From Brevibacterium sp. UMB1308A (GTDB taxonomy: Bacteria; Actinomycetota; Actinomycetes; Actinomycetales; Brevibacteriaceae), in NCBI RefSeq assembly GCF_030230605.1, contig NZ_JASPDO010000019.1, positions 1-55,404 on the forward strand: a DNA stretch of 55,404 bases, read 5' to 3'. The notes beneath the pieces were generated by a model. It saw only the letters and a list, made by a program, of their open reading frames with translations, did not search any database and was not told the origin of the DNA. The translations under genes and the position numbers were made by a program. Positions 231-21,596 of this stretch are shown one piece after another (position 1 is the stretch's first letter; every line of letters starts with the position of its first letter).

Positions 231-241
231 ACTTCACAACG

Positions 242-329
242 CGGTGAGTGTGGGATTTGAACCCACGGTAGGGGGTTGCCCTACAACGGTTTTCAAGACC
301 GTCACATTCGGCCGCTCTGTCAACTCACC
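242..329 (-). tRNA. tRNA-Ser (UGA)
   Basis: Read on the minus strand this is an 88-nt class II tRNA. The acceptor stem GGTGAGT pairs with ACTCACC, the anticodon loop is CTTGAAA with anticodon TGA, the variable arm is long, and the T arm is GTGGG-TTCAAAT-CCCAC. The discriminator base is G and CCA is not encoded. The long variable arm and discriminator G fit serine, and UGA reads UCN codons. It stands alone, with its own promoter and terminator. Confidence 0.96.
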
Positions 330-559: not shown

Positions 560-3202
560 ATGAGCGGACAGCCCCAAAAAACAGGCCATGACCGCTGGCG
601 ACCGTCATCGATTTACCGCGTACCAGTAGACCGCAACGTCACACTTTTCGATGTCACCAAGGTGATACCCCACATCGCTGAACTGGGGTTCACCGCTATT
701 CGTATCAGCCCTATCACGGCAGCTAGCACCGCCAACCAAACCGGGGCCGCTGCCGACCCAAACACCGTCGACCCACACCTCGGCGGTCTTGAAGGGCTGG
801 AAGCCCTTTCCACAGCGGCACACAACGCACACCTGGGCGTCATTGTTGACTTTGTGCCTGGCGCGCTCCACATCGCACACCCCAGCCTGAACCCCTACTG
901 GTGGGACGTGCTGATCCACGGCCGAGACTCCCAATACGCCAACTGGTTCGACATCCAGTGGACGCATAACAAGGTCACGGTGGTGGTCGACCAGCCTGCG
1001 GGCACAGCAACCCTGACCACTCACCCTGCAACAAACGAACCAGCACTGAAGATCGGCTCCTCGATCTACCCGGTCAACCCAGAAACCCTGCACGCCAAGA
1101 ACCCACAGGACCCCCAGCAACTCCTAGCCACCCAGAATTACACGTGCGTTGAAAGAACAAACCCTACGCACCCGCTCAATTATCGGCGTGTCAACGCTGA
1201 TTCAAACGTGGCCACGATCCGCGTGAATGACCCGCACGTTTTTACAGAAACTCACCGCGAACTCTCCCGCTGGTTCCACACCGGCCTGATCGATGGGGTG
1301 AGTGTGCGCCACATCGACTCGATCGCGAACCCGCAGGGATACCTCGAACAGCTCCACGACCTGGCCGGTGGCTACATCATCACGGAAAAGCGGTTCGCCC
1401 TCAACTCTGAAGGCCAGCGTGAGGTGACGCCGTCGTCGTGGCCAGGATCCGCGTCCGCGACCTATCCGCTCATCACGGCAATAGACGGCGCGCTCACCCA
1501 CCCAATCGGGTTCTACGAGCTCGAGTCGTTCCGGCAACATCTGGCAGCCGGACTGGACCCTCACAACCGTAGCGAAATCTCCCCCATCGCTAAGCAACTT
1601 AGGTTCAACCCCACCTCCGTGACCGGGTTGCTCACTCTGGAGGAAGTCCAGGGCAAAAAAGAAGTCACGAGCACGCTTATGCGTAGCGAAATGGTGGACC
1701 TGGCTGTCACTGCTAAGAACGCGTGGGATGGCCTGGATGAGTCCACGCGGGCTCGCATCCGTACTGACCCCACCACCCAGGTGGACGTCGATACGCTTGC
1801 GCAAATTTTGGGGATTCTGGTGGCTTCCGTGTCCGTGGCCCGCCCTGAACTCGGCTTAGATAAAGAGGCCGAGGTCGTTCGAGAAGGATTCTTATCAGCA
1901 CTTTCAGAGTCAGAGCCGGACGACTTTCTTGGCCGCAACAGCACGGGTGAAGTCCCGGTCATGACCGCGGGTTCTATGGTGGTTCCGCGAGCGCTAGCGA
2001 AAGTGCGTTCAACAGTGGCCTCAGGAACAGCTTCTGACCGGTTGCTGGCCTATGTGGGTCTTCTCCTCACCACTCCAGACTGCCCCGTGAGCACCAGGTT
2101 TTCTCAGACCACAAGCGACGTGTTCAACCTGGGTGTGACGGCTCGCGCGCACTATCGTTACTGCACGCTCGCCGCGCTCAACGAAGTCGGTGGACTCCCG
2201 TCCCAACCTGGTCACCCTGACCGCATCGTCGACGAGTTTCACCTCCAAACTTCGACGACCTCGGCGCCGGTCATCAACGGGCTCACCAGCCCGGTAACCA
2301 AGTATTCGCGCACGGAACGTTGCCGGATCCTCGCGTTGTCTGAGATCCCCCAGAAGTTCATGGAGTTCGTGGCGGACATGCGGGACCTGGCACCCTTGGA
2401 TTACACGAACACACAGGCACCCACCCCGGACACCAGCTTCGACATTCTGTTGTGGCAGTCGATTGTGGGCGCGTGGAATCCGCAGGTGAACGTTGAGGAG
2501 TTGGTGAATCGGGCGGTTCGGGCCGCCAGACGCCGCTACGAATCGGACGTCAGGTTTGTTGAGTCGGTGCGCAACGCCGTTCACAAGGCGCTCACCGCGC
2601 CCGAGGTCTCAGCGACCGTCGACCATATGGTTGCCACCGTGCGTCATGCGGGCCATCGCAACAGCCAGGCGGCACGTGCGTTGCAGCTGTTCTCCCCCGG
2701 GATTCCTGAAGTTTTTGACCCGCTGTTCGTCAACCCTCACGAACGGTTGGTCAGCAAAAATCCCAGTGACCAGTTGCTTCAAAAAGGCTTGGCGGTTCGC
2801 GCGCGCCACCCGCACATTTTCGCCCAACCATCCTCGCTCATACCCCCCAGCAGAGTTGCGGTCACAGGCGAGCGCGCTGAACACGCATTTGGGCTGGCGC
2901 ACTTTGGCGACGGACTGTTCCCCGATGTTGTGGTCGTGGTCGAACGCTTGCCCATCACTTTGCGCGCCACCGGCGGGTGGGGTGACACGCGGTTCCACAT
3001 TCCCACCTCGGTCGCAGACGATCAGGACCCCGCAGAGTCTGCTCCCACGTTGCAGACCATGGCCTTGCCTGTCATCCGTGAGGACGTTGAGCCCACGTGG
3101 CGTGACGCGCTGTCAGGGCGCACGTGGACTGGCGTGGATTTCTCCGTCGCCGAGGTGTTTGGCACTAACCCTGTTGCCCTCCTGGAGCGGGTGCGGAGTT
3201 AG
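560..3202 (+). CDS. TreY-like GH13 protein lacking catalytic residues
   Basis: This 880-aa protein is related along its length to maltooligosyltrehalose synthase (TreY, GH13), which converts the reducing end of maltodextrins into a trehalosyl unit. Family hallmarks seen are SSIYRV near the N-terminus, NPYWWDVLIHGRDSQYANWFDI (residues 111-132, split here only by reading), ALNEVGG near 539 and LSEIP near 593. The active site is degenerate. The expected RxDH nucleophile motif reads SVRH (Asp to Arg at about 250). The expected THDTKR reads SPVTKY (His-Asp to Pro-Val at about 578-579). VPNHM reads VPGAL, and the HGYD loop is gone. The acid/base Glu of the VEK motif is kept as TEK (about 276). An upstream in-frame ATG exists at 476, but AAAGGGA five bases before ATG 560 supports this start. 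No treZ or treX is nearby. It ends 50 bp from the convergent maltokinase-like gene. It is probably a pseudoenzyme or has a changed activity; the family assignment is firm and the function is unknown. Confidence 0.8.
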   Translation: MSGQPQKTGHDRWRPSSIYRVPVDRNVTLFDVTKVIPHIAELGFTAIRISPITAASTANQTGAAADPNTVDPHLGGLEGLEALSTAAHNAHLGVIVDFVPGALHIAHPSLNPYWWDVLIHGRDSQYANWFDIQWTHNKVTVVVDQPAGTATLTTHPATNEPALKIGSSIYPVNPETLHAKNPQDPQQLLATQNYTCVERTNPTHPLNYRRVNADSNVATIRVNDPHVFTETHRELSRWFHTGLIDGVSVRHIDSIANPQGYLEQLHDLAGGYIITEKRFALNSEGQREVTPSSWPGSASATYPLITAIDGALTHPIGFYELESFRQHLAAGLDPHNRSEISPIAKQLRFNPTSVTGLLTLEEVQGKKEVTSTLMRSEMVDLAVTAKNAWDGLDESTRARIRTDPTTQVDVDTLAQILGILVASVSVARPELGLDKEAEVVREGFLSALSESEPDDFLGRNSTGEVPVMTAGSMVVPRALAKVRSTVASGTASDRLLAYVGLLLTTPDCPVSTRFSQTTSDVFNLGVTARAHYRYCTLAALNEVGGLPSQPGHPDRIVDEFHLQTSTTSAPVINGLTSPVTKYSRTERCRILALSEIPQKFMEFVADMRDLAPLDYTNTQAPTPDTSFDILLWQSIVGAWNPQVNVEELVNRAVRAARRRYESDVRFVESVRNAVHKALTAPEVSATVDHMVATVRHAGHRNSQAARALQLFSPGIPEVFDPLFVNPHERLVSKNPSDQLLQKGLAVRARHPHIFAQPSSLIPPSRVAVTGERAEHAFGLAHFGDGLFPDVVVVVERLPITLRATGGWGDTRFHIPTSVADDQDPAESAPTLQTMALPVIREDVEPTWRDALSGRTWTGVDFSVAEVFGTNPVALLERVRS

Positions 3203-3252
3203 AGTTCGCGGGCTGGCGCGGGGCTACCGACGCGCCCGGTTTAGCGTCTGGC

Positions 3253-5469
3253 TTAGCGCAGGGTGCGGGCGGATTTGGGCGCGAAGGGTGGCTCGATTTC
3301 TCCGTCGGTGTCGTCCGCTGGGTCGTCAATGTCGTCCACTGGGTCGTCGGTTGGGTCGTCGACCTCTTCCTCGGCTGGTTCTACCGTTGCAGGAACCGCC
3401 GTGCTGTCCGCCACCTCGTCCGAAGCCCTGTCCCCCGCGTTGTCTGGCACCTCGTCCGCGACCTCGCCGGAGGCTCTGTCTGGCACCTCGTCCGCGACCT
3501 CACCCACCGGCTCATCCGCGGTCGCTTCTGCGACCTCGGCGTCCTGCGCTTCCGCCTCTACGTTGCGGGAGGCAGGAGCGACGATCCCGTGCCCGGCCTT
3601 CTTCGCTACCTGCGAAGCTTCGACAAGCCTGTCATTCTCCTGCCGCGCCTTGGCAGCCGCCGCCCGGGCGTGCGCGACCTTTTCTTCTTGTGCTTTGCGG
3701 TGTTCGGCCAGGCGTTCTTCGATTCCGGCGCGGGTGGCCTCGGTGGAGGTGCGCGGGTTGAGACGAGCCGGCTCTGCGGCCACTTCAGTGTCAGTGGTCA
3801 AAAGTCGCCTGAGCTCCGACAGTGGCACGATCAGCCACGTGGGCCGGTTCCGCAGCTCGCTCACGACTTCTACCAGAAGACGGTCGATGAGCATGGCCCG
3901 CAGAACGGGGTCCTTGAAGCTGAAGTCGGCGCCGCCAACATGCGAGTAGCCGGCCAAAAGTGCTTTCTGTGACTCGTGAGACCAGCGGGTTTCCGGAGCC
4001 CCGTCTACGCGGGCAATCAGATCGTCGTCGACCAGGCCGGTTGCGCCAAGGGTGCTCGGAGTGGCCTTGGGGTCGAGAGCTCCCGTCCGAGCCAGGAACG
4101 CGTACCCAGCTGCGTAATCCAGGCTACGCAGGAGCGCCACCAGGTCAAACGTTGGCGGACGCAGCTCCGATGTTTCAGAGAAGTTCGTCACCGTGTACCC
4201 GTGAACGGGTGCTTTCGCCACGTGATTGAGGGTGAGTTCGCCGTGAATGCGTTGCAGGTTGCCCACTGATCGCATGTCCGCAAGTGCTCGCTTGTGCGCC
4301 CGCAGCTGCTTCTCCAGTGGCTTGAGTGCAAGCGTGGCGCGGGCAAGCGCCCAGTCCACTCGGTCGGACCACTTCTTGACCCATTCCGCGGTAGGCGCGC
4401 CGGTGCCTTCGGCTTTGCCAAGCTCACGGCCCAGGTCTACGTGCAAACTGGCTACCCGGCCACCAAGGTCGTGCGCTTGGCGGGCGTACCCCGTGGCCTC
4501 CGCAGCGTTCCGGGCCGCCGCTACAGCCTCGCTCCACGCGCTCGTCGCGCTGGCTTCTGAGCGGGTCAGCATGGCCACAGGTGCGGTGTGCGTGTGCAGG
4601 TCGGTGCCGTCGAACCACCGCGACGCCATCCACCCCAGTACGGGTGCCACGGCCTGTGATTCGGCGAACGTGAGCATGATGGGTAGCCGCACAGATTCGG
4701 GCACATCGCTGATGTCGAGCGCCCTGAAGAACGTCAGCACACTGGGGAACGCGTGGTCGTCAATGAGAACCGCGGTTTCACCCTTGCGCGAATTGTCGAA
4801 CTTCAGCTGTGTGGTGGTGGCGCGGTGCCACAGAACAGATATGTTCGTCAGGTCGTTAAAGTCCCGCCCGCCGCGGCCCACGCGCAGCGCGGTCAGCTGC
4901 GAGTGGTCGGAGTTCTCAAACTGGCTGTCAAAGGCCTCGCTGACACTCACCGGTTCGGCACCCACGCCGGCGTCTGAGCGCATCCCGGCGGCCGCCTCGG
5001 CCATGGGGTCCTTGCGTTCCCCGCCATCCTCAGAAGGCGTCCCGAGGTCGTCGAAAGCTGCCTCGCGCCCCAGCGCGAAGCTCGCGTCACCAGTGGCCAT
5101 TGCGGTAGCGGCGAAAAGAACGAAAACGGGGTCGGCAACCGCGTCGTACACGTAGCAGGGCCCCAGCATGAAGTCGTCGATTTGCCCAATGAGGTGCGAG
5201 CGAAGAGGTTCTTCTTCGCGCGTGCGCAGAGTCAGCGGAACGCTAATACGACGGGTGTTCTCACCGTCGCCGATACCTACAACGGCGATCCAGCCCTGGA
5301 TGGTCAGAGTTTCATCGCCGGGCAGGGGGAAGTCCAGCTCAAAGACTTGAGTGTCGGACATGGGGACGACGTCCGGGGTGCCGGCCAGCTCAAAAGACGT
5401 GACTGGAAACCAGGACTGACGAGGCAACCATTGCGCAAGCAGACCTTCGAGTTCACTGCTCATCGCCAT
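3253..5469 (-). CDS. Maltokinase-like protein with degenerate active site
   Basis: This 738-aa protein resembles maltokinase (Mak/Pep2), which phosphorylates maltose to maltose-1-phosphate in the trehalose-to-glucan (GlgE) route. Support includes the N-terminal cap signature LLAQWLPRQSWF (10-21), SHLIGQIDD...YVYDAVADPV (91-115) and a kinase-like C-lobe with LLRSLDYAAGYAFL (446-459). The catalytic loop, usually HGDYHLGQ, reads HGELTLNH (409-416). The metal-binding DFEGEP reads NFSETS (429-434). Both Asp residues are therefore replaced. Residues 580-620 are predicted coiled coil. The last ~100 residues form an acidic low-complexity tail with repeated GEVADEVPD-type units. AAGGAAGAGGG lies 7 bp before the ATG. 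It is convergent with the TreY-like gene, which is also degenerate. Kinase activity is doubtful. Confidence 0.75.
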   Translation of the reverse strand: MAMSSELEGLLAQWLPRQSWFPVTSFELAGTPDVVPMSDTQVFELDFPLPGDETLTIQGWIAVVGIGDGENTRRISVPLTLRTREEEPLRSHLIGQIDDFMLGPCYVYDAVADPVFVLFAATAMATGDASFALGREAAFDDLGTPSEDGGERKDPMAEAAAGMRSDAGVGAEPVSVSEAFDSQFENSDHSQLTALRVGRGGRDFNDLTNISVLWHRATTTQLKFDNSRKGETAVLIDDHAFPSVLTFFRALDISDVPESVRLPIMLTFAESQAVAPVLGWMASRWFDGTDLHTHTAPVAMLTRSEASATSAWSEAVAAARNAAEATGYARQAHDLGGRVASLHVDLGRELGKAEGTGAPTAEWVKKWSDRVDWALARATLALKPLEKQLRAHKRALADMRSVGNLQRIHGELTLNHVAKAPVHGYTVTNFSETSELRPPTFDLVALLRSLDYAAGYAFLARTGALDPKATPSTLGATGLVDDDLIARVDGAPETRWSHESQKALLAGYSHVGGADFSFKDPVLRAMLIDRLLVEVVSELRNRPTWLIVPLSELRRLLTTDTEVAAEPARLNPRTSTEATRAGIEERLAEHRKAQEEKVAHARAAAAKARQENDRLVEASQVAKKAGHGIVAPASRNVEAEAQDAEVAEATADEPVGEVADEVPDRASGEVADEVPDNAGDRASDEVADSTAVPATVEPAEEEVDDPTDDPVDDIDDPADDTDGEIEPPFAPKSARTLR

Positions 5470-5538: not shown

Positions 5539-6840
5539 TTAGACGAACATCCTGAACAGCGGCGAGTCCTTGGAAACGCGTTCGATTTCCAGTGGGGAGG
5601 CGTCCATGCGTTCCAGCAGACCGGGGAGGTCTTGCGCGCACCCCAGTGTGATGCCCACGAATGCGGGCCCGATTTCGCGGTCGGAGCGCTTCACGTACTC
5701 AAACATGGAGATGTCGTCGTCGGGACCCAGCACGTTGTCGAGGAAGCGTCGCAGTGCCCCGGGTTCTTGCGGGAAGTTCACAATGAAGTAGTGCTGTAGG
5801 CCCTCCCATACAAGGGCACGTTCGAGCACTTCTGAGTAGCGCGACAGGTCGTTGTTACCGCCGCTGATGACACAGACGACAGTTGACCCGGCTTCGATGG
5901 TCACGGGAGCGTTGGAGTCGCTAGGCCCCACGGAGGCGGGTGCGATCGCCCCGGCGGGTTCGGCGATGATCCCGTCAACCTGGTACAGGTCCACCATTTC
6001 CTTTGCCACGCGCCCTTCGTCCACAGTGGTGATGGGCAGGCCGAGGTCGCGGACCATTGCGTATGTCAGGTCACCGGCCTGGCGCACGGCGGCCCCGTCG
6101 GCAAACGAGTCGACGGTGTCCAGTTGTACGGGTGTTCCTGCTGCGAGCGCTGCAGTCATGCACGCGGCCCCTGCTGGTTCGACGCCAACCACGCGGGTGT
6201 TTGGTGTGCGGTGGTGGCAGTATTCGGCCATTCCGGCTAGCAGGCCACCCCCGCCCACAGGCACCACTATGGTGTCCGGATAGAAGCCCAGTTGGTCGGT
6301 GATTTCGGCAGAGATGGTGCCTTGGCCGGCGATTGTGCGCGGGTCGTCGAATGCGGATACGAGCAGCGCCCCCGAGGTGGCGGCGTGTTTTTTGGCAAGT
6401 TCCGAGGCGTCGTCGTACGTGGACCCGGCAACCGTGATGGTGATCCGGTCGCCTCCGAAGTGGCGGATCCGGTCAATCTTTTGCCGTGGTGTGGTTTTGG
6501 GGACGAAGATGCGCCCTTCGACGCCCAGCGTGTTGCAGGCACGGGCGAACCCTTGCGCGTGGTTGCCGGCAGACGCACAGACTACGCCGTGTTCCCGCTC
6601 TTTCGCGTCGAGTTGCAGGAGGAAGTTGAAAGCGCCTCGGATCTTGTAGGAACGCACCGGCTGCAGGTCTTCGCGTTTGAGGTACACGGTGGCGCCGGTG
6701 AGTTCGGAGAGGCGTTCGGAAATGTGCAAAGGCGAGGTGATGACGCAGTCGGCAATTCGTTTGGCTGCGTCTTCGATGTCAGACACGGTTGGTGGTGTTG
6801 TTGTCTTCTGTCCCTCTATTAACACTCCTCCATTGTGCAT
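5539..6840 (-). CDS. ilvA: Threonine ammonia-lyase (IlvA), biosynthetic
   Basis: Deaminates threonine to 2-oxobutanoate, the first step of isoleucine synthesis. The 433-aa protein has the PLP fold with SYKIRGAFN (Lys 66 binds PLP), the SAGNHAQG phosphate-binding loop and the glycine loop VPVGGGGLLAGMAE. A single C-terminal ACT-like regulatory domain (from about residue 345, LQHYFIVNFPQEPGALRRFL) matches the short corynebacterial form more than the two-domain E. coli enzyme. There is no clear ribosome-binding site before ATG 6840, so the message may be leaderless; a GTG a few codons in is preceded by GGAGGA but with no spacing. It is divergent from the quinone oxidoreductase gene. Confidence 0.94.
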   Translation of the reverse strand: MHNGGVLIEGQKTTTPPTVSDIEDAAKRIADCVITSPLHISERLSELTGATVYLKREDLQPVRSYKIRGAFNFLLQLDAKEREHGVVCASAGNHAQGFARACNTLGVEGRIFVPKTTPRQKIDRIRHFGGDRITITVAGSTYDDASELAKKHAATSGALLVSAFDDPRTIAGQGTISAEITDQLGFYPDTIVVPVGGGGLLAGMAEYCHHRTPNTRVVGVEPAGAACMTAALAAGTPVQLDTVDSFADGAAVRQAGDLTYAMVRDLGLPITTVDEGRVAKEMVDLYQVDGIIAEPAGAIAPASVGPSDSNAPVTIEAGSTVVCVISGGNNDLSRYSEVLERALVWEGLQHYFIVNFPQEPGALRRFLDNVLGPDDDISMFEYVKRSDREIGPAFVGITLGCAQDLPGLLERMDASPLEIERVSKDSPLFRMFV

Positions 6841-14566: not shown

Positions 14567-15955
14567 ATGAAGAAGCTCGTTCTTGCGCCGGCCGTTGCTT
14601 TGGTTGCTGGTGCTATCGCATTTTCCGGCACTCCTGCATTCGCCGCCCCCACCACCGAATGCTCCAACAACACCCTGAACGCCAAGGAAGGCGCTCAGTG
14701 CGTCATCACGCTTGACGCTGACGCGGTTAAGAAGGCCGGCAAGGTTTCGATCACTGTTTCGAACCTGCCTGAGGGCGCCAAGATCAAGTCGGTGGACGCT
14801 CCTAACAGCTCTGACCCAAGCCTCAAGCTGGCTACGACTGTTGACGAGCTTGCTAAAACACCTACGTTCAAGGTGTACGGGGTAGACGGCATTACTGGCG
14901 ACGGAGAAACGAAAAACCCCAATGGCGACTACACGGTTACCGTCACCCTTGAAAACGGCACCACTGTCGACGCCGGTGTTGTTCGTTACGTCGACAAGAG
15001 CAAAGAAGCTTCAGCCCCTGCTTACATGGAGCCGAAGAATGGTGGCCTCCAGTACGCTAAGTCTTTCCGCTCTACAGGCTCGGTGATCACGTACACGAAC
15101 CTCGAAGCGAACAAGGACTTCACTTGGGTCCTCGAACACAAGCAGTCCGGTAAGACCTCAACTGGAACATTCCGCTCGAACAAAGACTCGAAGGCTGGCG
15201 GCTCCTTCATTGTGAAGCTCGACGGTGCTGACAAGATGTCTGACGACGAACTCAAGGGTGACTACACAGTGGCCCTGAAGGACGAGTCGGGCAAGACTCT
15301 AGACCTGTCGACCAAGCTCTTTATCGTTCTCGAAGCTCCTCGGGTTGACCCAGAAAACCCTGGTGAAGGTGACCAGCCTGGTGAGGAGGCTGCTGAGTAC
15401 GGTCTGAAGGTTTCGCCTAAGGAGCTTAAGCCTGCTGACTTTGTGAACAAGGACAAGGGTGTTCAGCTGACTGTTACTGGGCTGAAGCCAAACGAGAAGT
15501 TCAACTACTCCGTGTCCAAGCAGGACGGCGGAAAGGTCGAGAACCTTTTCAAGGAAGTACAGGCCAACAAGGACGGTGTCTGGTCACACACTGTCTACGG
15601 AATTAAAGGTAGCAACGGACTCGACGGGTTCCTGGGAACCTACAAGGTCACCATTAAGAGCGAAGAAGGCGTCCTGACCGACTCCTTCAAGGTCACCAAC
15701 ACCCCTGGCAAGAAAGACGAAGCTAAGCCAGGCGACAAGGGTGGCGACAAAGACAAGGGTGACGGTAAGAACAAGGGCGAAGCTAAGGGCGGAGACAACA
15801 ACTCCGGTAAGAGCAACAACGCCAAGGGCAACGACGGCAAGTCCTCGAACACCTTGCCACGCACCGGTATGGAGCTTTCCGGCCTGATCGCCGGTGGAGC
15901 GCTCCTCACCGTAGGTGCAGCAACCGTTCTGGTAACCCGCCGCCGCACCAAGTAA
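14567..15955 (+). CDS. LPXTG-anchored surface protein 1
   Basis: A 462-aa secreted wall protein. The signal peptide is MKKLVLAPAVALVAGAIAFS with cleavage expected after AFA (about 28). Two beta-rich (Ig-like) regions follow, then a ~100-aa module from AAEYGLKVSPKEL to TDSFKVTN, a Lys/Gly/Asp-rich flexible linker (KPGDKGGDKDKGDGKNKG) and the sorting signal LPRTG plus hydrophobic segment plus RRRTK. Sortase should attach it to peptidoglycan. No sortase gene is in the window. The frame is open upstream, but ATG 14567 begins the signal peptide and is preceded by CTAAGG. The last ~190 codons and the terminator are nearly identical to the next gene. Ligand or adhesive role unknown. Confidence 0.92.
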   Translation: MKKLVLAPAVALVAGAIAFSGTPAFAAPTTECSNNTLNAKEGAQCVITLDADAVKKAGKVSITVSNLPEGAKIKSVDAPNSSDPSLKLATTVDELAKTPTFKVYGVDGITGDGETKNPNGDYTVTVTLENGTTVDAGVVRYVDKSKEASAPAYMEPKNGGLQYAKSFRSTGSVITYTNLEANKDFTWVLEHKQSGKTSTGTFRSNKDSKAGGSFIVKLDGADKMSDDELKGDYTVALKDESGKTLDLSTKLFIVLEAPRVDPENPGEGDQPGEEAAEYGLKVSPKELKPADFVNKDKGVQLTVTGLKPNEKFNYSVSKQDGGKVENLFKEVQANKDGVWSHTVYGIKGSNGLDGFLGTYKVTIKSEEGVLTDSFKVTNTPGKKDEAKPGDKGGDKDKGDGKNKGEAKGGDNNSGKSNNAKGNDGKSSNTLPRTGMELSGLIAGGALLTVGAATVLVTRRRTK

Positions 15956-16113: not shown

Positions 16114-17529
16114 ATGAAAAAGCTCCTCCTTGCCCCAGCCGTTGCAGTCGTAGCTGGTTCAATTGCTTTCGCTGGCTCCGCTGCTTACGCAACACCAACT
16201 CCGGCACCTCCTACCGGTGAACCTAACACCTCTGAGACGCAGAAACCATCCGCCTCTGGAACGCAGGAACCATCCGCCTCCCCGACAGAGAAGGCCGCCT
16301 CGGACATCACTGTGGAAGGTAAAGACACCCTCACAGTGGCAGAGCTGGACAAAGGTGTCAGTTACAAGGTTACGGGCCTCAAGCCTGGCCAGAAGCTAAC
16401 CGTGTATCTTGGCACTGCTCTTTCCGCTAATGCTGAAGGTAAAGCTACAGCGGACGAAAACGGTAACGCCACTGTCAGCATCAAGTCCATGTGCGGTGAT
16501 GATGTCAGCCCAAAGGAGTGCTGGAACTACCCTGAACTCAGCCTGATGTTGCTTGTCGACGGCAAGTTTGTCAAGGACCACAAGGGCGTCCAAAAGATCA
16601 AGGTGAGCGATGCCTCTATCTCCGGGAAGCTCGACAAGGACAAGGTAACTGTCGAAGAACTCGCCAATAAGAAAGCGGCACCGGTTTACTCAGGTACCGG
16701 GCTGGAACCCAACAAAGAATACACGGCCAAGCTTTTCCCAAGCGAAGACAAGGACGGCATCGATCCTCTTGCCGAGATCACGTTCAAAGCTGACGACAAG
16801 GGAAACTTCAGCGTGCCTCTGGCAACAAGTGCTGAAGTTGCAAAGAAGGCAGTCGGCGAAATAGCTGTTTTGGTTTATGGCGTCGAAGACGGTATGCGCA
16901 CTCTTCCAGTTGTGAACTTCACGGTGACTGAAGCACCAAAGGAAGAAGCACCTGGTGAGGAGGCTGCTGAGTACGGTCTGAAGGTTTCGCCTAAGGAAGT
17001 AACGCCTGCTGACTTTGTGAACAAGGACAAGGGTGTTCAGCTTGTTGTGACTGGGCTGAAGCCAAACGAGAAGTTCAACTACTCCGTGTCCAAGCAGGAC
17101 GGCGGAAAGGTCGAAAACCTTTTCAAGGAAGTACAGGCAGACAAGAACGGTGTCTGGTCACACACTGTCTACGGAATTAAAGGTAGCAACGGACTCGACG
17201 GGTTCCTGGGAACCTACAAGGTCACCATTAAGAGCGAAGAAGGCGTCCTGACCGACTCCTTCAAGGTCACCAACACCCCTGGCAAGAAAGACGAAGCTAA
17301 GCCAGGCGACAAGGGTGGCGACAAAGACAAGGGTGACGGTAAGAACAAGGGCGAAGCTAAGGGCGGAGACAACAACTCCGGTAAGAGCAACAACGCCAAG
17401 GGCAACGACGGCAAGTCCTCGAACACCCTGCCACGCACCGGTATGGAACTCTCCGGCCTGATCGCCGGTGGAGCACTCCTCACCGTAGGTGCAGCAACCG
17501 TTCTGGTCACCCGCCGCCGCACCAAGTAA
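16114..17529 (+). CDS. LPXTG-anchored surface protein 2
   Basis: A 471-aa paralogue of the previous protein. The signal peptide is MKKLLLAPAVAVVAGSIAFA with AYA/TP cleavage at about 27, followed by a Pro/Thr/Ser stalk carrying a doubled SASGTQEPSASPTE-like repeat. Next comes a distinct N-terminal half with two Cys residues (MCGDD and KECWN) that could form a disulfide. It shares the ~100-aa AAEYGLKVSPKE module, charged linker and LPRTG sorting signal with protein 1. GAAGGAAACTG provides the ribosome-binding site before ATG. The N-terminal halves of the two paralogues differ, so the pair looks like variable heads on a common wall-anchored base. Confidence 0.92.
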   Translation: MKKLLLAPAVAVVAGSIAFAGSAAYATPTPAPPTGEPNTSETQKPSASGTQEPSASPTEKAASDITVEGKDTLTVAELDKGVSYKVTGLKPGQKLTVYLGTALSANAEGKATADENGNATVSIKSMCGDDVSPKECWNYPELSLMLLVDGKFVKDHKGVQKIKVSDASISGKLDKDKVTVEELANKKAAPVYSGTGLEPNKEYTAKLFPSEDKDGIDPLAEITFKADDKGNFSVPLATSAEVAKKAVGEIAVLVYGVEDGMRTLPVVNFTVTEAPKEEAPGEEAAEYGLKVSPKEVTPADFVNKDKGVQLVVTGLKPNEKFNYSVSKQDGGKVENLFKEVQADKNGVWSHTVYGIKGSNGLDGFLGTYKVTIKSEEGVLTDSFKVTNTPGKKDEAKPGDKGGDKDKGDGKNKGEAKGGDNNSGKSNNAKGNDGKSSNTLPRTGMELSGLIAGGALLTVGAATVLVTRRRTK

Positions 17530-17847: not shown

Positions 17848-20016
17848 ATGCTCGACACTTATACCGACGCAGCCGAATACACATATAACTACCCAGGCGA
17901 CGACATGTTTCTCGCACTTAAAGGTGTTGAGCGCGAAGCTCACTTCATGGCGATGCAACGTGCGGAAGCTTTAAGCGAAATACTCCTCGCCCATCTCTCC
18001 CCTCTAAGTCAGGACTCCACGGAACTGCGCGCAGTGTTTAACGCTGAACCTGGTGCCGCGCCAGCGATCACCGGCCAAGTTCCACATGAGTGGACTGATG
18101 GCGATTCGGGTCAGGAAGCTACATCTGGGCTTGAACGCAATAGTCAAACTTCCATTCACCTTGATGACACAGTGCCGTGTGTAGCAGTGCCTGGGCGCGG
18201 AACATTTGCAGTTAAGGCAATCGAAAAACTGGTGGAGACACTGCCGTCATCCACGATAGGCGCGCTGTCCGAAATTATGGATTGCACCGGGCCAAACGTG
18301 ATAACACGAGCACGGAAAACCACAATAGCCACGCTTTTGATGCCCAAACTGTGGTCACTCGTGAAACAAGGTGTAGTGAGTTTCGACCGGCTCATGTACA
18401 CCGTGAGCCGAGTCAGCTATACCAACGTGTGCATCCCTCATTTTGATGAGCTGCTGACCGCCAGGCGCGTCGATGTCACCTACAAGACATACCGGAAACA
18501 TGTCAACGAGATTCTTGCGATGCTCACGTCACCGCAGTCCCGGAACGATGACGCCACACGAAACCGTACTGTCCAGTGCTGGGACAACGGCGACGGCACT
18601 TCCACGCTCAACGTCACGGGACCCACACTTCACGTTCAAGCGTTCTTTCAGCGGCTTCGAGGGTCTGCCAAAGCGATCAAATCCAACCACATCGACCCGT
18701 TCACCACGACCCTTGATGAAAAAGACCACAAGGTATTTTTTACACGCCCATCGAAGGGAAAGACCGAGGTGCGAGTGGGTGACCTTGGCAAGGTAGTGAT
18801 AGACGAGGAGCGGCTGATGAACCAGCTGATGTTTGATTTGCTTCTCGGCTCCAAGCCTTCGACTACTGTGCGGGCACGGATCATTCCCACTCGCCAGCAG
18901 GCACCCACACGCGTTGAAACTGCCGAACGTACGGGCGATCGCGAAGGGGTAACCGAGCTTAGCAAGGTGCCCGTGTTTGAAGATCGGTGGGAAGCCAACC
19001 GGGCACAGAATGTGCACGAACTAGAGCTGTGCATTTCGATGCCCACTGACGAAGAGTGGTTGAAATCCCAAGCCAGCATCAACCTCACAGTTCCCCTGAT
19101 CCACTTATGCAACGAGAAGCCGCCGGGCAAAGCCTCGTACCAAAGACTCAACACAGAAAGCCCGTCGGGCAAAGTCTCGTATCAAGGGCTCAGCAACGAA
19201 AGTCCGCCGGGCCAACAACAGACAGATAAGCAAACTGATGAGAATTTAACGGATGAAACCGTGCCTGATGAGCACGCACTTCAGCCAGCGCTTGAAGACC
19301 AGGTGCAGATTCCTGTAATGCTAAATAACCGCATCCCCATAGATCCGCAAACTGCAGACCAAGTGCTCCTGGACGCAACATGGCTGTACCGGATGTTCAC
19401 TGACCCGCAAACCGGGGTGGTGCTCGAATCCACGCCCACCAAGTACCGGGTCACCGCACCACTGAAACGCACATTGGAAGCCAGATGGGTGGACTGCTCT
19501 GCGCCCTGGTGTCCGGTCCCAGCCAGAGTGTGCGAAAAAGACCACATCGAACCGTTCAATCACGCTAAGCCCACACAAGGCGGGCAGACCGTGCTCGAAA
19601 ACCTGCATCCACTTTGCAAAAAGCACCATCAAGAGAAGACACAGAAACGAATAAACGTAACCAGACGAGAAGACGGTTCACTCGCCTGGGAGTTCCCAAG
19701 GATTGGCACCAGGCTTGTCTACCCTCCGGAATCACGAATCAACCAAGCACACTATGAGCAGCTCCTTGAACGCTTTGACACCGGGGACATCGACGCGAGC
19801 CATAGCATCGAGCAGTACCTTAAGGCGGAGCGCGAAGCTCGGGAACGCACAATTAACCCGGAGGCAGCGAAGCGGAGCGAACACGAGCAGGCGGAAAATA
19901 GGCACGGCAACAATGAGAAGCCCGATACGGGCACCGCGCAAGGGACTACGACAGCACCAGTAGACCCCTGGGCACCGCTCAACCAGCTGACAAACGACGA
20001 CCCTCCACCGTTCTAA
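17848..20016 (+). CDS. DUF222 / HNH endonuclease-domain protein (13E12 type)
   Basis: A 722-aa protein of the large actinobacterial DUF222-HNH family. An N-terminal alpha-helical DUF222 region is followed by a C-terminal HNH nuclease motif at about 550-597: two CxxC-like pairs (CSAPWC and LCKKHH), EKDHIEPF and NLHPLC..HH. Members are often multicopy and resemble mobile-element cargo, but their role is not established. Residues 422-455 hold two and a half copies of a 14-aa unit (KPPGKASYQRL-like). ATG 17848 follows GAGGGGGG. Codon use is richer in A/T than in neighbours. It separates LPXTG paralogues 2 and 3, consistent with insertion into that array. No inverted ends or target duplication were found. 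Confidence 0.87.
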   Translation: MLDTYTDAAEYTYNYPGDDMFLALKGVEREAHFMAMQRAEALSEILLAHLSPLSQDSTELRAVFNAEPGAAPAITGQVPHEWTDGDSGQEATSGLERNSQTSIHLDDTVPCVAVPGRGTFAVKAIEKLVETLPSSTIGALSEIMDCTGPNVITRARKTTIATLLMPKLWSLVKQGVVSFDRLMYTVSRVSYTNVCIPHFDELLTARRVDVTYKTYRKHVNEILAMLTSPQSRNDDATRNRTVQCWDNGDGTSTLNVTGPTLHVQAFFQRLRGSAKAIKSNHIDPFTTTLDEKDHKVFFTRPSKGKTEVRVGDLGKVVIDEERLMNQLMFDLLLGSKPSTTVRARIIPTRQQAPTRVETAERTGDREGVTELSKVPVFEDRWEANRAQNVHELELCISMPTDEEWLKSQASINLTVPLIHLCNEKPPGKASYQRLNTESPSGKVSYQGLSNESPPGQQQTDKQTDENLTDETVPDEHALQPALEDQVQIPVMLNNRIPIDPQTADQVLLDATWLYRMFTDPQTGVVLESTPTKYRVTAPLKRTLEARWVDCSAPWCPVPARVCEKDHIEPFNHAKPTQGGQTVLENLHPLCKKHHQEKTQKRINVTRREDGSLAWEFPRIGTRLVYPPESRINQAHYEQLLERFDTGDIDASHSIEQYLKAEREARERTINPEAAKRSEHEQAENRHGNNEKPDTGTAQGTTTAPVDPWAPLNQLTNDDPPPF
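19111..19212 (+). repeat. 42-bp in-frame tandem repeat in the HNH gene
   Basis: Units at 19111-19152 and 19153-19194 plus a partial third to 19212. The unit length is a multiple of three, so copy-number change keeps the frame. It lies in the linker between the DUF222 and HNH parts. Confidence 0.75.
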
Positions 20017-20252: not shown

Positions 20253-21596
20253 ATGAAGAAAATTATCCTCGCCCCAGCCGTTGCAGTCGTAGCGGGATCC
20301 GTAGCGTTCGCTGGCCCTGCGGCAATCGCAGCCCCAGGCGCCACAAACCCCAGCGGCTCTGCTTCAGCTGCAGACGAGCCGGATGCGCCCAAGCCTGAAT
20401 TTTCAGTTGGGAACAAGAAGAAGCAGGCCACCGACTTCCGCGACAACGGTCAAACCGTCAACTTCAAGAACCTGGAATCCGGCAAGAAGTATTCGTGGAC
20501 GCTCACCAGCGACCACAACATTGAACACCCAGGCTCCTTCACCGCCAAAGACAGCGACGGGAACTTCACTGTCACACCTCCAAACCAGGACGGAGCGGCA
20601 GACGCCCTGATCGCTAACTACACCGTCACCGTCAAGGACGAAAACGGTGAGACCGTCGGCACCGCCACGTTCTCAGTAATCGGTGACGACGAGAACCCAG
20701 GTGACGATGACAACCCAGGCGACAACCCCGATGCACCAAAACCAGAACTGTCGGTTAAACACGACAAGGTGCACGCCACGCCGTTCCGCAACAACGGCCA
20801 CGCCATCGAATACAGGAACCTGGAACCTGGCAAGAAGTACACCTGGAGCATCCACGGTGGCGAAGAAATCAGCTCCACCGGCACGTTTACCGCCGAAGAA
20901 GCCAACGGCACGTTCTACGTCGAAGTCCCTAGCGACACCGACGAAAGCGTCCTCCCAGGCGAATACACGGTGAAACTCGAGGATGAAAACGGCACCACCC
21001 TTGATTCCGTCACCAAGTTCACCGTAGTCGAAGACGGCGAAGACATCGACAATCCTGATGAAGGCAAAGACCGTTACCAGCTGTCGCTGGATCGCTACGA
21101 ACTGACCGCAAAAGAGTTCCTCAACAAGGAAACCGGCGTTCAGATCGGCGTCGTGGGCCTCAAACCTAACGAGAAGTTCACCTACTCGGTCACCAAGGTT
21201 GACGGCGACGGCAAGGTCGAAGACTACGAAAACGAAGCAACCGCTGATGAAAAAGGTCGCTGGGGAACCACCCTTCACGGCGTCCAAAAGGGCCAAAGCA
21301 TTGAGAGCTTCGTCGGCAAATACAAAGTCACCGTCAAGAGCGAACAAGGCGAACTCACCGACCACTTCACCGTCACCAGCGGCAAGAAGAACGACAACGA
21401 CGATGACGCTGCACCCGGAGACAACGGTTCAGACAACGGTTCGGATAACGGCTCAGGATCCGGCAATGACTCCAACGCCGGCAACTCCTCCGACCTCCCC
21501 CGCACCGGTGTAGGACTCACTGGCCTGCTCGCTGGTGGGGCACTCCTCACCGTCGGCGCAGCAACCGTGCTGATCACCCGCCGTCGCGCAAAGTAA
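20253..21596 (+). CDS. LPXTG-anchored surface protein 3
   Basis: A 447-aa wall protein with the same signal-peptide start as its paralogues (MKKIILAPAVAVVAGSVAFA, cleavage near AIA/AP). Two homologous Ig-like repeats follow, each opening with PDAPKPE(F/L)SV and containing LE(S/P)GKKY(S/T)W and a GNFTV-like strand, at about 46-150 and 165-265. Then comes a diverged relative of the C-terminal module of proteins 1 and 2 (DRYQLSLDRYELTAKEFLNKETG...LTDHFTVTS), an Asp/Asn/Gly/Ser linker and LPRTG with a hydrophobic segment and RRRAK. GGAAGGA lies before the ATG. The Asp/Glu-rich repeats with NPGDDDNPGD linkers might bind calcium, which is speculation. Confidence 0.92.
   Translation: MKKIILAPAVAVVAGSVAFAGPAAIAAPGATNPSGSASAADEPDAPKPEFSVGNKKKQATDFRDNGQTVNFKNLESGKKYSWTLTSDHNIEHPGSFTAKDSDGNFTVTPPNQDGAADALIANYTVTVKDENGETVGTATFSVIGDDENPGDDDNPGDNPDAPKPELSVKHDKVHATPFRNNGHAIEYRNLEPGKKYTWSIHGGEEISSTGTFTAEEANGTFYVEVPSDTDESVLPGEYTVKLEDENGTTLDSVTKFTVVEDGEDIDNPDEGKDRYQLSLDRYELTAKEFLNKETGVQIGVVGLKPNEKFTYSVTKVDGDGKVEDYENEATADEKGRWGTTLHGVQKGQSIESFVGKYKVTVKSEQGELTDHFTVTSGKKNDNDDDAAPGDNGSDNGSDNGSGSGNDSNAGNSSDLPRTGVGLTGLLAGGALLTVGAATVLITRRRAK

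Follow-up and report, generated by a model that had tools for sequence, protein, structure and literature searches.

The best described maltokinases (Mak/Pep2) are those of M. vanbaalenii (4u94), M. tuberculosis (4o7o) and M. smegmatis, the last one in the TreS:Pep2 structure (5jy7). According to PMC4306142, Lys149 of Mak binds ATP, Asp305 is the catalytic residue, Asp322 binds Mg, and tyrosines line the maltose site. The TreS:Mak complex is known from PMC6509496, and GlgC-GlgM is given as a second source of maltose-1-phosphate in PMC11046441. Malto-oligosyltrehalose synthase (TreY) is represented by the Arthrobacter ramosus enzyme (6lcu), and in Arthrobacter Mak is also encountered as a fusion with GlgB (NF011293). 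In general, pseudokinases and other pseudoenzymes, as outlined in PMC7586955 and PMC5106787, combine a conserved fold with lost catalytic residues and purifying selection, and the two genes presented below are alike in these respects.

The window, i.e., the whole analysed stretch of 55,404 nucleotides from Brevibacterium sp. UMB1308A, carries relatives of TreY and Mak side by side:

241..329, minus strand: tRNA-Ser(TGA), detected by ARAGORN, the outer landmark of the tRNA-Ser to ilvA interval
560..3202, plus strand: ORF A (880 aa), predicted TreY (malto-oligosyltrehalose synthase) pseudoenzyme, based on TIGR02401, the AlphaFold model and dN/dS
3253..5469, minus strand: ORF B (738 aa), predicted maltokinase (Mak/Pep2) pseudokinase, based on the Mak_N_cap match and on maltokinases of known structure
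5539..6840, minus strand: ilvA (threonine ammonia-lyase), above the cut-offs of TIGR02079 and NF006390, neighbour of the pseudokinase

An earlier sequence-only reading of this DNA had described two adjacent full-length genes, convergent, with 50 bp between their stops and with catalytic residues lost from both. The description was borne out: ORF A (from position 560) and ORF B are open over their full length, the stop-to-stop gap spans positions 3203–3252, and the alignments confirm the losses in both proteins. A promoter and terminator scan of the locus revealed no signal exceeding that of shuffled sequences.

ORF A scores 302.6 bits against the TreY model TIGR02401, i.e., under its cut-off of 498.65. 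The AlphaFold model of ORF A has a pLDDT of 85.8 and best matches 6lcu among PDB entries (TM-score of 0.86 by target length), with the TreY fold extending over the whole length. For residue comparison, 11 members of the clade (the window, genomes G001 and G053, and database proteins P0079–P0086) were set against 25 other TreYs, using the numbering of A. ramosus TreY (P0102). In the alignment, N89H90 is replaced by GA, R232 by S, D234 by R, and H474D475 by PV in ORF A. The corresponding positions in the window are as follows:

860..865, plus strand: Gly101-Ala102 replacing Asn-His; changed in 11/11 clade members, Asn-His kept in 25/25 other TreYs
1301..1309, plus strand: Ser248-Val-Arg250 replacing Arg-x-Asp; changed in 11/11, Arg-x-Asp kept in 25/25 others
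1385..1387, plus strand: Glu276, a kept residue, invariant across the 42 sequences of alignment A2
2291..2296, plus strand: Pro578-Val579 replacing His-Asp; changed in 11/11, His-Asp kept in 25/25 others

The Asn-His and His-Asp sites belong to GH13 regions I and IV, respectively, and the Asp of Arg-x-Asp, where Arg250 stands in ORF A, is the TreY nucleophile. The catalytic triad of Asp, Glu and Asp corresponds to Arg250, Glu276 and Val579, with Glu276 the only one kept, and residues of the GH13 −1 subsite are among the replaced positions. While ORF A resembles the A. ramosus enzyme in its whole-length fold, all 11 members of the clade depart from it in having Arg for the nucleophile Asp, Pro-Val for His-Asp and Gly-Ala for Asn-His. 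The changes extend beyond the active site. A set of 189 columns is uniform in no fewer than 24 of the 25 other TreYs. Of these, 93 are conserved in 10 or all 11 members of the clade, 26 have switched to one other residue that is fixed in all 11, 42 are changed variably, and the remainder are mixed. A "TAG" counted within the TreY match of G053 maps by its coordinates to the end of the ORF and is read as the terminal stop. Judged by these substitutions, ORF A is a full-length putative TreY pseudoenzyme whose active site has been dismantled.

ORF B matches Mak_N_cap with 36.8 bits (cut-off, 22), has both the N-cap domain and the bilobal kinase fold, and matches maltokinases of known structure; as is the case for ORF A, its AlphaFold model resembles the parent enzyme. 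Its best NCBIfam match, far below the cut-off, is the Mak-GlgB fusion, to which the locus type is otherwise similar in having mak beside glgB. With M. vanbaalenii numbering, 58 ilvA-linked copies (57 Brevibacterium genomes plus the window) were checked against a canonical set of 45 sequences, i.e., 34 non-Brevibacterium loci and 11 of the 28 lower-scoring proteins P0051–P0078. The alignment revealed the replacements K149 to T246, D305 to E411, H307 to T413, D322 to N429, Y416 to V533 and Y420 to S537 in ORF B, which is located on the minus strand:

4732..4734, minus strand: Thr246 replacing ATP-binding Lys149; Lys in 0/58 copies and in 45/45 canonical Maks
4231..4239, minus strand: Glu411-Leu-Thr413 replacing catalytic Asp305-x-His307 of the HGD loop; Asp305 in 3/58, His307 changed to Thr in 58/58, both kept in 45/45 controls
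4183..4185, minus strand: Asn429 replacing Mg-binding Asp322; Asp in 0/58 copies and in 45/45 canonical Maks
3859..3873, minus strand: Val533 and Ser537 replacing maltose-site Tyr416 and Tyr420; Tyr416 changed to Val in 58/58, Tyr420 in 0/58, Tyr at both positions in 45/45 canonical Maks
3256..3789, minus strand: C-terminal tail (residues 561–738), helical at 577–624, then of low confidence and acidic, with the end PKSAR-T-L-R

Across all 58 copies, Lys413 of the maltose site is replaced by Arg and Tyr420 by Thr, Ser or Ala, Mg-binding Gln310 is retained in only five, and the EQSN P-loop is missing from all eight pseudokinase sequences inspected. All 58 copies retain the residues equivalent to His303, Phe323 and Asp343. 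Three copies (G009, G056 and G058) retain Asp305; in G058, Asp305 is present while both Lys149 and Asp322 are gone. Conversely, Asp322 is present and Lys149 lost in database proteins P0013, P0014 and P0033. These retentions of Asp305 and Asp322 point to a stepwise inactivation, and residual function is possible in some lineages. Judged from its sequence, ORF B is a full-length predicted maltokinase pseudokinase, and its kind differs from Mak/Pep2 of known structure in the replacement of the ATP lysine, the Mg aspartate and the maltose tyrosines in all 58 copies and of the catalytic Asp in 55 of them.

A further difference from Mak/Pep2 is the tail that is usually added in this kind of protein. 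It comprises 132–646 aa with a median Asp+Glu content of 25% in 56 copies, G058 (contig end) and G014, whose Mak-like protein has no tail, being excluded. In the model of ORF B, pLDDT stays below 50 from residue 630 on, and the acidic, low-confidence tail fits a disordered tether, as far as the model goes. The end motifs vary by clade (P[KR]SAR in 11/58 copies, VFD[DE]LLG in 18/58, and a PARP-type end in 5/58), so that the tail ends do not point to a single docking motif. Short separate ORFs (201–297 aa) that weakly resemble the Mak N-cap alone (E-values of about 1e-3 to 6e-7) were also noticed in 19 of the 57 genomes (e.g., G014:C31:18362-18718).

The selection acting on both genes was estimated by the Nei-Gojobori method among the window, G001 and G053. 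The dN/dS values of the TreY-like gene are 0.155–0.206, and those of the whole Mak-like gene 0.112–0.163. The Mak-like core (residues 1–560) gives 0.092 for the window versus G001 and 0.057 for the window versus G053, the tail 0.262 and 0.232, respectively. Among the flanking genes, ilvA has 0.047–0.077, serS about 0.03, and the least constrained neighbour 0.23–0.34; the TreY-like gene is under weaker constraint than most of them. As these values are well below 1, both genes are maintained, the TreY-like gene and the Mak tail less strictly. Both ORFs combine lost catalytic residues, a predicted intact fold and purifying selection, as is usual for pseudoenzymes. The synonymous distance of the Mak-like gene between the window (3253–5469) and its G001 counterpart (L107) is 0.30 (core, 0.245). 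It is larger than for the TreY-like gene and the majority of the flanking genes, which range over 0.12–0.18 (dagk, 0.24), perhaps due to recombination.

The two degenerate forms are distributed very differently. A Mak-like gene of the ORF B kind was found in 57/57 Brevibacterium genomes, in each of them linked to ilvA, within 900 bp in 53 and at 2.4–4.7 kb in four. The two genes are divergent in 55 genomes; in the window, G001 and G053 they share a strand, with ilvA located 69 bp upstream of the pseudokinase. The tRNA-Ser(TGA) gene is found on the strand of mak, on its side away from ilvA, in 51/58 cases; it is absent from the examined stretch in the remaining seven, two of which end at a contig end. 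Mak distances correlate with ilvA+qor distances (Pearson r = 0.96, 58 rows), which indicates vertical inheritance of Mak, and the 28 pseudokinases in the Mak tree form one group with a stem of 1.57. Outside the genus, contigs were scanned with two peptide patterns: among the best 80 of 158 matches, 79 loci were kept, 45 from Brevibacterium and 34 from others (Arthrobacter and kin), and these 34 are canonical at the counted Mak residues, although remoter cases may exist beyond those 80 matches. In the three gene positions next to mak on its side away from ilvA, three gene families recur (34–39 genomes); they were considered as conserved partners and set aside as plain synteny.

Dead TreY, by comparison, occurs in the window and in only 2/57 genomes, G001 and G053, both of which carry full-length close copies of both ORFs. 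TreYs with intact motifs (39–42% identity) are found in G004, G044, G046 and G058, and remoter ones in G005, G010 and G068, that of G010 being intact residue by residue. The dead TreYs make up one clade of the TreY tree (support, 100/100), which has a long stem (1.46) and joins ten Brevibacterium-type TreYs with support of 100/100, four of them genome copies and six database proteins. Whether this clade falls within the active Brevibacterium TreYs or next to them is resolved with low support (89/78), and its sequence composition deviates. Dead Mak is found without dead TreY in 55/57 genomes and, in the four with the intact motifs, it accompanies a TreY whose catalytic residues are in place. 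The two inactivations are therefore separate: as read from the residues, Mak is already dead where TreY still looks active. With respect to active treY, treZ and mak elsewhere in the genus, which the sequence-only reading had raised, the answer is divided, TreY being intact in these four genomes at the same neighbourhood, the Mak there being dead, and a canonical-looking Mak appearing as Mak-GlgB in G005, G010 and G068.

In the same four genomes, the neighbourhood holds a larger gene set. Using codon-scored gene calls, the tRNA-Ser to ilvA interval of G004, G046 and G044, contained in one contig each, was found to contain glgX-treY-treZ and, on the opposite strand, glgB-mak-glgE, and the same genes are split across two contigs in G058. 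The families were assigned by HMM in G004; for G044, G046 and G058, the assignment drew on gene length and order, on BLAST, and on matches to the GlgE and TreZ models. In its place within the cluster, ORF A corresponds to the TreYs of G004, G044 and G046. The separation of 2.4–4.7 kb between ilvA and mak in these four genomes includes glgE, and in G004 a Usp-like gene lies between glgE and ilvA. The GlgE motifs are intact in all four. The window retains only treY and mak of this set, and the adjacency of the two genes is explained by the larger glg-tre cluster at the same place. The pair is best read as what is left of a glycogen/trehalose cluster after its collapse, and the tRNA-Ser gene as an old landmark. 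On the ilvA+qor tree, two changes suffice to explain the four cluster carriers, a figure compatible with an ancestral cluster as well as with a later gain, and with various numbers of losses.

Most of the surrounding pathway is rare in the genus. GlgE was found in 7/57 genomes, TreZ above the cut-off in 7/57, GlgC above the cut-off in 10/57 (G053 among them), and a GlgM-type synthase above the cut-off in 4/57, exactly the four with the ilvA-linked glgE cluster. The same 14 genomes match both the TreZ and TreS models, which are both GH13 models, and the other 43 of the 57 match neither. No TreS exceeds the cut-off in any of the 57 genomes, in which respect the ORF B kind differs from the TreS-bound Pep2; the near-full-length match in G010 (496 bits) stays below it. 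OtsA-like genes are present in 56/57 genomes, all of them below the cut-off. A classical glgP-glgB-glgC-glgA-glgX operon is found in G001, and genes similar to it in length and order in G053. Two candidate partnerships were rejected on these counts, i.e., GlgE/GlgB as present-day partner of Mak (GlgE in only 7/57) and a TreS:Mak-like complex (no TreS above the cut-off in 57 genomes). Besides the ilvA-linked pseudokinase, G005, G010 and G068 have a second, separate cluster (L088, L087 and L089, respectively) with a canonical-looking Mak fused to GlgB, HMM-tested in G010, where the fusion protein is 1262 aa long; the fusions differ from the pseudokinase in keeping Lys149, the HGD loop and the DFE motif.

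The sequence-only reading had held joint repurposing to be likelier than independent decay. Its objection to decay is sustained by dN/dS well below 1 and by the full-length copies in G001 and G053. That the two genes are leftovers in decay within a single strain is very improbable: key residues are indeed lost and the surrounding pathway genes are gone, but both genes are full length in three genomes with dN/dS far below 1, 26 conserved TreY positions are fixed for another residue, and for Mak retention in 57/57 genomes refutes decay outright. The proposed joint repurposing did not hold up equally well. As the outcome that would speak against it, the independent occurrence of the degenerate forms across genomes had been named beforehand, and this is what the co-occurrence scan of 57 genomes revealed, with dead Mak in 57/57 and dead TreY in 2/57. 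A single new complex of the two dead enzymes, e.g., a maltodextrin or trehalose-phosphate sensor, is therefore regarded as fairly unlikely, although the two proteins may make contact in this one clade. The two genes adjoin each other in G001, G053 and the window, and in this clade they represent all that is left of the cluster in the tRNA-Ser to ilvA interval; proteins P0085 and P0005 share a longest-contig figure of 6337, a hint of adjacency in a deeper relative. On the other hand, dead Mak stands without dead TreY in 55/57 genomes and near an intact TreY in four, and the cluster together with the tRNA-Ser–ilvA frame accounts for the adjacency. Nor is a sensor that uses the former pockets likely, since both proteins have substitutions at their ligand sites as well, namely at the maltose tyrosines of Mak and at residues of the GH13 −1 subsite of TreY. 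As for the tRNA-Ser gene, pointed out earlier as an integration landmark, the landmark stands and the recent island does not. An island integrated at this gene, which does adjoin treY, is exceedingly improbable: the position of tRNA-Ser relative to mak, in both side and strand, is shared by 51/58 cases and makes it a landmark of the genus, the mak-ilvA link in 57/57 likewise refutes a recent acquisition of mak, Mak is vertically inherited, and the dead TreY groups with Brevibacterium-type TreYs.

Two further readings concern the pseudokinase itself. Pseudokinases with other chemistry are known, and the residues matching His303, Phe323 and Asp343 are unchanged in every copy, so that another nucleotide, another cofactor or a transfer other than maltose phosphorylation may be considered; it is quite unlikely, given that the ATP lysine and the Mg aspartate are both at 0/58, Gln310 at 5/58, and the EQSN P-loop in none of the eight sequences inspected. 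A regulator tied to ilvA (threonine deaminase) would agree with the 57/57 linkage, divergent in 55 and, in the window clade, still side by side in one orientation. However, the ilvA side is syntenic anyway (qor in 57 genomes), which makes the mak-ilvA adjacency alone weak evidence, and in four genomes 2.4–4.7 kb including glgE separate the two genes; such a role is distinctly improbable. It is probable, instead, that Mak lost catalysis in the ancestor of the genus, that the cluster was lost afterwards, and that dead Mak and, in one clade, dead TreY were kept as non-catalytic binding proteins. A variant in which the GlgE-pathway kinase became a genus-wide housekeeping adaptor unrelated to glycogen, and one clade recruited dead TreY as the second subunit of a two-pseudoenzyme complex, seems unlikely.

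According to the preferred reading of an early loss of Mak catalysis, the binding of ATP, Mg and maltose by Mak would have disappeared in the Brevibacterium ancestor, a loss plausibly tolerated as GlgC-GlgM supplied maltose-1-phosphate. The glg-tre cluster would later have been lost in most lineages, with mak left behind, and in the window clade TreY would also have lost its active site, yet been kept. The pseudokinase, no longer catalytic, may offer its bilobal fold (N-cap and C-lobe) as a docking surface, usually accompanied by the long, acidic and probably disordered tail, to a partner that would be genus-wide and outside alpha-glucan metabolism. The TreY pseudoenzyme would be a non-catalytic binding protein limited to one clade, the examined genomes of which carry a classical operon of the glgC-glgA type. 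The docking role proposed for Mak is deduced by elimination and from conservation; ORF B would most likely be a non-catalytic binding protein with a partner outside glycogen metabolism.

The locus offers a clear natural example of an enzyme that has survived the pathway it came from, the pseudokinase being present in 57/57 genomes versus GlgE in 7/57, presumably with a non-catalytic job. The four cluster-carrying species, with GlgM as the other source of maltose-1-phosphate, suggest how catalysis grew dispensable. For annotation, the names "malto-oligosyltrehalose synthase" and maltokinase should not be taken as activities here. In the literature searched, no paper on such Mak or TreY pseudoenzymes was found, and none pairing "pseudokinase" with "maltokinase".

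Elsewhere in the window, the ORFs at 14567–15955, 16114–17529 and 20253–21596 resemble LPXTG-anchored surface proteins, and the 722-aa ORF at 17848–20016, located between them, resembles an HNH-type endonuclease. The C-terminal halves of the products of the ORFs at 14567–15955 and 16114–17529 are near-identical.
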